Shown here in pieces: positions 57,405 through 60,400 of a stretch of 64,000 bases of DNA. The notes beneath the pieces are model-generated. The model made no database searches, was not told the origin of the DNA, and worked only from the letters and a program-made list of their open reading frames with translations. The DNA comes from Odontesthes bonariensis (Eukaryota; Chordata; Actinopteri; Atheriniformes; Atherinopsidae): NCBI RefSeq assembly GCF_027942865.1, contig NC_134515.1, positions 26,186,227 to 26,250,226 of the forward strand. The letters run 5' to 3'. Made by a program: the position numbers and the translations under genes. How positions within the stretch are numbered: position 1 is the first letter of the stretch; each line of letters starts with the position of its first letter.

Positions 57405-60400
57405 TTACATTGTCAACTCCTGCAAAGACAGAAAAAAACAACAGTCAGCACAAATTAAAATATTAATTTTCCAACCGCTCAGAGTTTCTCTCTTCTCAGG
57501 ACAGAAATGTTGGCTTCAGTGAACTCAGAAGAACGAAAGTCACTGTAATCAATCATCACTGAAGAGGCCTTCGTACATGTATAGAACTGGAGAGTGACTT
57601 AGAATGCGTTGCTGTGCAGACCCCGCAGACATTTTTACAGCCAGCGAATCCAAGACTTTTCAAATCTTACCATAATAGCATTGACAATGTCGTTGTTGTT
57701 GTTTTTCAGAGCGCGTACAGCCTTTGCCCGTGATACGTTGGCTTGTGACATGACGAGTTCAATGTCCTTCACCTCAACTCCGGTCTCATCAACCTATGAA
57801 AACAACGCAGGCGAGGATTTGTCATCCCATTTACGAAACGTAATTATATTTTTCTGGACTTAAAGAAAACCCCCCCCAGCTTACCTCTTCTTCTTCGCTC
57901 TCCTCCTGTACTGTGGGCGTCTGTGTGTTTTCCTGAATGTTTGATACCGCCTCTCCCTGTACCTTGAACTTTTCTGCGGCGGCCAGCTGGGCTTGCTGGG
58001 AAAGATCTTCAATCTGTTGCACGGACACATCGGAAAAATGAGAAATCTATGCAGCACTGACACGAGACAAACAAGTTTAATTGTTTTACTGTCTTATAGA
58101 AAGACGTGACGAGTCGCAACAGTTCCAGAGTAACCACACGGAAAACAGGAAGGCGGGTTTGTATGGCTGCTGGTTACCTTGGCTTCACCGAAGACGATGT
58201 ACGTGTCTGACGCGGGGCTCTTGTAGACGTCTGGTTTGGTGATGACGAACAAGATGTTCTTTGACTTGCGAATGGTGACCCTGGTGACGCCTGTTACTTG
58301 CCTGAGACCAAGCTTTGACATCGCCTGCAAAGAACGCGAATAATGTTACCAATGTGGACACATCTGACAGATGTAGTAGTTCACATTAGCTAGAGGGAGA
58401 AATGATCGTTACCTTTCGTGCCTTCTTTTCACTGCGGCTCTGTTTGGCTTTGCTGACGGGTTCCTCATCTATTTCCGCAGCTGCTGCAAGCTGTAGGAAG
58501 TAGAAACTGTGGTTTTCTTTACATGTCAACGATGAGATTCCAAGGAAGAGATTGACACGTTTAAATGAAATAAATATCTCTTCTCAGGACAGAAAGGCTG
58601 GCTTCAGGAGGCTCAGAAGAACGAAAGTCACTGTACAAATCATCACTGAAGAGTTCAAGGCATCTGTTCAACCAGTGAATAGAACGATCAGGACCAGACA
58701 GAAGTCTTACCTGGGCTTGTTGTGTCTGTGTCTGTGCAGAGTCCTGTTCCTCCAGCTCAGGGACTGAGTCGTCACTGTCTGACTCTGTGCCAGATCCTAC
58801 ACAAACAACCAGTTAAAAATAAATAAATATATTTAAAAAAAAGTCACATCATATTTACCTGAAAAAGGCTGCATCAATTCTGGAATCAGGGAATCATTAA
58901 CAGCGAGAGAAAACACAGTAATGTATGCAATAGAGCCATGGATCAGAGTGATCACACTATTGACGACAGAAAACACTCCCACCCAAACACAATTTAGCTG
59001 ACAAAGGTCCACAGTACCAACAGCTAGGTGGCTACTGAACTTAACCAAGGCTTATTCACAAGACTGGCTTTTTAAGGGTATATGGTATAAGAGTATACAT
59101 CTAAGTATCTGAGAAGTTCCCAGAACACAGAAGGAGAGAAAGAGGAAAATACCATTGTTGTTCTTGATCACAGGCGCCACCTTGACTGGGGTTTTAGCAG
59201 GAGTGGGGGCAGGTTTAGGTGAGGAGACAGTTTCAGACGGAGCAGCATTGATTATCTCGACTTCAGGTTTAACAAGTGCAGGTTTTGAAACTGCCTCTGC
59301 AAAAGTGAGTTTACGTGGAGCTGGGGCGGGAACAGCAGGCTCAACTGGAGCAGGTTTTAAGGGGGCAGATGAGGGCTTAGCCGCTGGTTCAACAGGAGCC
59401 GCTTTAACCTCAACCAATTTCGCTTCAGTGGCTGGCTTGGCAACCTTCTCAGAGGCTAGCTTGGTAACTTCATCTGGCATGTGCACCTTTTCTGGCTTTT
59501 TAACCTCAACAGGAGCTGGCTTCACCTCAACGGGAGCAGGCTTCACCTCTACGGGAGCAGGCTTCACCTCTACGGGAGCAGGCTTCACCTCTACGGGAGC
59601 AGGCTTCACCTCTACGGGAGCAGGCTTCACCTCTACGGGAGCAGGCTTCACCTCTACGGGAGCTGATTTCACCTCAACGGGAGCTGATTTCACCTCAACA
59701 GGCTTCAGCTCTACAGGGGTTGGCTTGATCTCTACATCTGGCTTTGTAACCTTTGTAAAAACAGGCACAGCTTTTGGCTCATTGTCCATCTTGTCTTTAG
59801 TAACTTCTACTGGGGCATTGGCAGAACTCAGAGGATTGATCTCAGATGGAGATTTAGCAAGCTTTGCACCCTCTATTTCAACTAGAGGTGAGATTACTGG
59901 CATTTTAACTGGCTTCTCAGGTGGGATAAGTGGAGGAAGCTCATCATCAGCAGCAGCCATAACAGGAGCTGCTTTTGATGAGGATACCTTCACTTCAACC
60001 GATTTGGGAGGGCTTGCAGCAATAGCATCTGAAAATGAAATTGGCGGTGCAACAGCAGGCTTTGAGGTAACTTTAAATGCAGCTGGTGCTAAAACTGGTT
60101 TTGCAGCAGCTGGTGACTGAGCTTTGGGCTCAACTGGGGCAGGTTTCACTTCAGCTGGGTTCTGGAGCTTAGGCTCCTCAGGCTTTTCGCTCACTTTGGT
60201 GAGCTTGCTGTCAGCTTGGGTATGAGCAGGCACAAATGGCTCTCCTTTCTTAGGTTTGCCCTGTTTGCCAGCCTTGACTACTTTTGGGGCAGTGCGGGGA
60301 GCTTGATTAGCAGAAGAGCTACCAGCTGAGGAAGCCAAGGGCGATGGTACAGGTGACAGAGGGGTAGAGGAGGGAGTAGATTTTGGAGAGGTGGGAGAGG

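Follow-up and report, generated by a model that had tools for sequence, protein, structure and literature searches.

Two box C/D snoRNAs of the SNORD59 family lie in introns of naca in Odontesthes bonariensis, a host gene different from the ATP5F1B that carries this guide in human and chicken. Both are full-length members of the family with an identical guide towards 18S rRNA, and no SNORD59 is detectable at either of the two atp5f1b loci of the fish. We consider it highly probable (about 0.9) that both are functional genes which would be made from naca introns and would guide 18S methylation, with naca as their host.

Results

Identification and copy number of SNORD59

The window, by which we mean the whole 64-kb stretch of DNA analysed here (C15:26186227-26250226), belongs to a source genome of 945 Mb in 187 contigs. 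Based on a cmscan run of the entire window against Rfam 15 at the gathering threshold (45 bits for RF00273), there are two matches above threshold, and both are SNORD59 (Table 1). Each spans model positions 1-73 of 73, the full length, and their scores of 77.3 and 75.5 bits exceed the threshold by 32 and 30 bits. Both naca-intron sequences are members of the SNORD59 family, as an earlier note on this DNA had proposed from their resemblance to it; the length of 76-77 nt given there is the Rfam span with one further stem pair. Other families overlapping copy 1 (SNORD26, SNORD110 and SNORD53/92, at 23.1-23.5 bits) fall below their thresholds of 44-64 and were rejected.

The two copies are 88% identical, as measured in a DNA search of the source genome. 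When all 945 Mb were searched with copy 1, the two candidates obtained (2/2) were these same copies. A family search for SNORD59 likewise led to the same two places and no further one among the 60 of 255,525 first-look candidates that were scored, and at this sampling a diverged third copy may lie elsewhere in the genome. Additionally, no Rfam match at the gathering score was obtained in another 15 stretches, 149,900 bases in all, nor in L030-L031. The guide pattern had 0 matches in viral contigs, a comparison that is uninformative.

The bare box pattern RTGATGA..CTGA..CTGA occurs five times in the window, twice on the plus strand and three times on the minus strand, and could speak for a chance resemblance to a snoRNA, or for the dispersed repeat of which the earlier note had warned. 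Boxes alone therefore prove little, and it is the covariance-model score that carries the case. With E values of 2.1e-15 and 6.7e-15, and just two copies in the DNA search of the 945 Mb, chance or a dispersed repeat is ruled out, its probability being negligible in our estimate.

Table 1. Features of the SNORD59 copies, their host gene and the related loci in O. bonariensis (window positions unless a contig is given)
Feature	Position	Strand	Basis or remark
SNORD59 copy 1, box C/D snoRNA, last naca intron	57491..57565	-	RF00273, 77.3 bits, E 2.1e-15
Copy 1 box C, GUGAUGA	57553..57559	-	sequence
Copy 1 guide GACUUUCGUUCUU, 13 nt, immediately before box D'	57529..57541	-	agrees with Rfam consensus
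Copy 1 box D', CUGA	57525..57528	-	sequence
Copy 1 box D, CUGA	57496..57499	-	sequence
SNORD59 copy 2, box C/D snoRNA, upstream naca intron	58579..58652	-	RF00273, 75.5 bits, E 6.7e-15
Copy 2 box C, GUGAUGA	58640..58646	-	sequence
Copy 2 guide, same 13 nt	58617..58629	-	sequence
Copy 2 box D', CUGA	58613..58616	-	sequence
Copy 2 box D, CUGA	58584..58587	-	sequence
naca coding region, stop codon to window edge	57405..64000	-	tblastn with human NACA; exons 76-100% identical
Last naca intron, 251 nt, GTAAG...TTTGCAG	57420..57670	-	holds copy 1
Upstream naca intron, 220 nt, GTAAG...CTACAG	58491..58710	-	holds copy 2
baz2a	34554..46988	-	tblastn with human BAZ2A
ptges3	50665..51813	-	tblastn with human PTGES3
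prim1	C15:26254180-26261099	-	tblastn
atp5f1b, apparently intact	~C16:15261.4-15264.9 kb		residues 44-528 matched; first exon identified by eye
Decayed atp5f1b copy	~C17:22113.5-22114.9 kb (L029 about 3500-4900)		intron-containing, in-frame stop

Boxes, guide and terminal stem

In both copies, boxes C, D' and D follow one another in order, and the guide GACTTTCGTTCTT (13 nt), identical between the copies, abuts D' (CUGA) in line with the Rfam consensus, just as the earlier note had described it. The guide pairs over 13 nt with a segment of human 18S; counted by hand, the position five bases up from D' faces an adenosine of that segment. Against both the Rfam consensus and this human segment, the D' guide is directed at 18S near human A1031. 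PMC3766210 lists 18S A1031 as the target of human SNORD59, and a horse study (PMC12288042) lists the same site.

A terminal stem of 6 bp, CUCUUC/GAAGAG, is possible in both copies, with duplex energies of -8.8 and -8.4 kcal/mol, so that the stem proposed earlier stands as a duplex alongside the ordered boxes. The copies differ at several positions, all of them outside the boxes and guide. When copy 1 is folded alone with 8-nt flanks, its minimum-energy structure lacks the terminal stem. This fold might be expected if the sequences were non-functional fossils, that is, intronic snoRNA copies no longer expressed, but both copies retain every named element, and the genome searches revealed no further SNORD59 that could serve this conserved 18S site. 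We regard fossils as very improbable.

The host gene naca and the intron setting

The naca exons lie on the minus strand, as do both SNORD59 copies, which are therefore sense-intronic; the start codon is placed by tblastn just outside the window, at C15:26250242. The host introns are non-adjacent, with further naca exons and introns intervening, and this bears out the location given in the earlier note. The 5' splice site is 105 nt away from copy 1 and 58 nt away from copy 2; for the 3' splice site the values are 71 and 88 nt, respectively. Hirose and Steitz reportedly described a preferred spacing of intronic C/D snoRNAs from the 3' splice site, and both copies fit this rule, at a spacing that permits snoRNP assembly.

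Copy 1 and copy 2 show no significant similarity in their intron flanks: in three comparisons, 88, 477 and 100 of 500 shuffles scored as well. As the flanks are unlike while the boxes, the guide and a possible stem are kept, conservation applies to the snoRNA itself. To judge from these alignments, the pair shows the pattern of older duplicates under constraint and is probably not young.

Several other features of the gene were observed. A long open frame in the ORF list (59052-60605) lies between naca exons and may be the muscle skNAC exon, a candidate label that we assume here. Within the long naca open frame is a 21-bp tandem repeat (59458-59744, 10 registers listed), a likely site of length variation, and long A-rich runs (63338-63394 and 63587-63614) lie between the first coding exon of naca and those that follow. 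A candidate naca 5' exon starts near the pyrimidine run TTCTCTCTC, which would suit a TOP-type host. Just upstream of this candidate exon, some 1-1.5 kb before the start codon of naca, sits a Tc1/mariner-type transposase-like sequence, recognized by eye on the minus strand (L003). The genome has one other NAC-alpha-like gene, on C6, and no SNORD59 at that gene is among the genome-wide family matches (60 of the 255,525 candidates scored).

The gene cluster on C15 and the atp5f1b loci

Gene names come from tblastn searches with human proteins. The cluster on C15 runs baz2a, ptges3, naca, prim1, with the matches on the minus strand. We take the human order to be BAZ2A-ATP5F1B-PTGES3-NACA-PRIM1, in which ATP5F1B is a cluster neighbour. 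Human ATP5F1B gave no match between baz2a and ptges3, nor was the gene found in the remainder of the window or in the C15 flanks 26156228-26186226 and 26250000-26289900. The earlier statement that ATP5F1B belongs to the same cluster thus holds for human and fails for the fish, in which the gene is on C16. At C15:26269.7-26270.1 kb, BAZ2A gave two weak matches (E 3.8e-7 and 2.4e-4, with 25-30% identity) that we took as compositional and set aside.

The apparently intact atp5f1b on C16 has a second intron of less than 100 nt, presumably the counterpart of chicken ATP5B intron 2. At the C17 locus, no match past residue 204 of ~529 was found within 50 kb. Since the decayed copy keeps introns, it derives from a duplicated gene and is not a processed pseudogene; together with the intact-looking gene on C16, it indicates that atp5f1b was duplicated and that one copy decayed.

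The earlier note had suggested looking for SNORD59 in the introns of both atp5f1b and naca, and it was found in naca alone: in cmscan with E up to 5, SNORD59 is absent from the 10-kb stretch around each atp5f1b locus (L023 on C16, L029 on C17), in which the three weak matches listed are all sub-threshold and of other families. A short BLAST of both snoRNAs over the fetched stretches yielded matches of 10-19 nt with E of at least 0.039, none of them inside either atp5f1b gene. Local alignment against shuffles detected no significant SNORD59 remnant at the atp5f1b loci, the best case being equalled by 10 of 100 shuffles. The second intron of the decayed copy on C17 holds the 8-base CTGAAGCC, which was rejected as a remnant because 44 and 49 of 100 shuffles did as well as the alignments of that intron.

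Neither C16 nor C17 yielded a copy of naca, and Pfam revealed no clear synteny there: 10 C16 ORFs contained retroelement, short-chain dehydrogenase and VWA domains, and 6 C17 ORFs contained one sub-threshold DUF. No Pfam family was found in 10 ORFs of the window. Downstream of the C16 atp5f1b lie retroelement pieces (L024 1075-2961 and 5539-6186), with reverse transcriptase above and integrase below the Pfam cut-off, and farther downstream is a short-chain dehydrogenase exon.

Discussion

In human, ATP5B (ATP5F1B) at 12q13.3 is the reported host of SNORD59A and SNORD59B (PMC3766210), and chicken U59 (GGgCD22) lies in ATP5B intron 2 (PMC2653536). The arrangement in O. bonariensis is another one, the host being naca, and a difference of host from human and chicken, which the earlier note had anticipated, is supported for this genome. 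Like human SNORD59A/B, the fish copies are full-length members of this Rfam family, have the consensus guide and D' placement, and come as two copies per host gene; unlike them, they reside in naca, while atp5f1b occupies another contig and no SNORD59 was detected within it. Chicken GGgCD22 has been given the same role towards 18S, as a U59 guide, but it is a single copy in ATP5B, whereas the fish has two copies in naca and an atp5f1b second intron of less than 100 nt.

Changes of host gene by a conserved guide of methylation are already in print: vertebrate C/D snoRNAs may occupy different introns or host genes between species (PMC3349704, section 9). The cases given there resemble ours in that the same snoRNA has another host; its main text does not name SNORD59, ATP5B or NACA. 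The pairing of SNORD59 with naca was not found in the literature searched, a scope to which supplementary tables and Ensembl annotation do not belong, and no work on fish SNORD59 is apparent from the titles and abstract openings of the SNORD59-bearing papers listed. The main texts of PMC4378963, PMC3511168, PMC6954239 and PMC10234308 make no mention of SNORD59, ATP5 or NACA; that of PMC2832892 makes none of U59, ATP5B or NACA, and that of PMC4792531 none of SNORD59, the sole name sought there.

As for their function, the SNORD59 copies would be spliced out with the naca introns, and debranching followed by exonuclease trimming of these introns would give rise to SNORD59, which would be packaged into a C/D snoRNP. 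This particle is predicted to guide 2'-O-methylation of the 18S adenosine equivalent to human A1031. In this fish, naca would thereby act as host in the way that ATP5F1B does in human and in chicken. Transcription, processing and methylation are here read from the DNA and may be expected on the strength of the conserved elements.

We infer the direction of the host change, for which two histories come into consideration. In the first, to which we give even odds, naca would have received a copy of SNORD59 from atp5f1b, somewhere in the ray-finned or the teleost lineage, while both genes shared the cluster, and the atp5f1b of the cluster would then have been lost or separated from it, leaving naca as the sole host. 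The baz2a-ptges3-naca-prim1 cluster on C15 without an atp5f1b match is consistent with such a transfer, as are the intact-looking atp5f1b on C16 with its short second intron and the decayed, intron-containing copy on C17. However, the search for naca copies on C16 and C17 came up empty, and the Pfam scans of selected ORFs there disclosed no clear synteny.

In the second history, which we find possible if somewhat doubtful, the vertebrate ancestor would have carried SNORD59 in both ATP5F1B and NACA and nothing would have moved recently; by differential loss, amniotes would have retained the ATP5F1B copies and the fish lineage the NACA copies. The two hosts are, as we take it, near neighbours in human, and old local copying would presumably have been easy. 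The naca copies, with their unlike flanks and several differences outside boxes and guide, probably do not form a young pair, and published reports place SNORD59 in ATP5B in both human (PMC3766210) and chicken (PMC2653536), all of which would fit an ancestral double hosting. On the other hand, no remnant was detected at either fish atp5f1b locus, and losses would be required on both sides.

With regard to the transfer within a shared cluster, we tentatively propose, at slightly below even odds, that naca became the sole SNORD59 host in this fish lineage because atp5f1b left an ancestral baz2a-atp5f1b-ptges3-naca-prim1 cluster, the guide having either been duplicated into the remaining neighbour or persisted there, and having vanished from the departing gene. 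If this is true, the host of a snoRNA would be set by gene loss around the snoRNA and not by the needs of the host.

In summary, SNORD59 in naca represents neither a new kind of RNA nor a new mechanism. It provides a clean and testable case in which a conserved rRNA-methylation guide has one host gene in a fish and another in amniotes. An empty orthologous intron should accordingly not be equated with absence of the snoRNA, and cases such as this one illustrate that conserved intronic RNAs can outlast the loss or relocation of their host genes.
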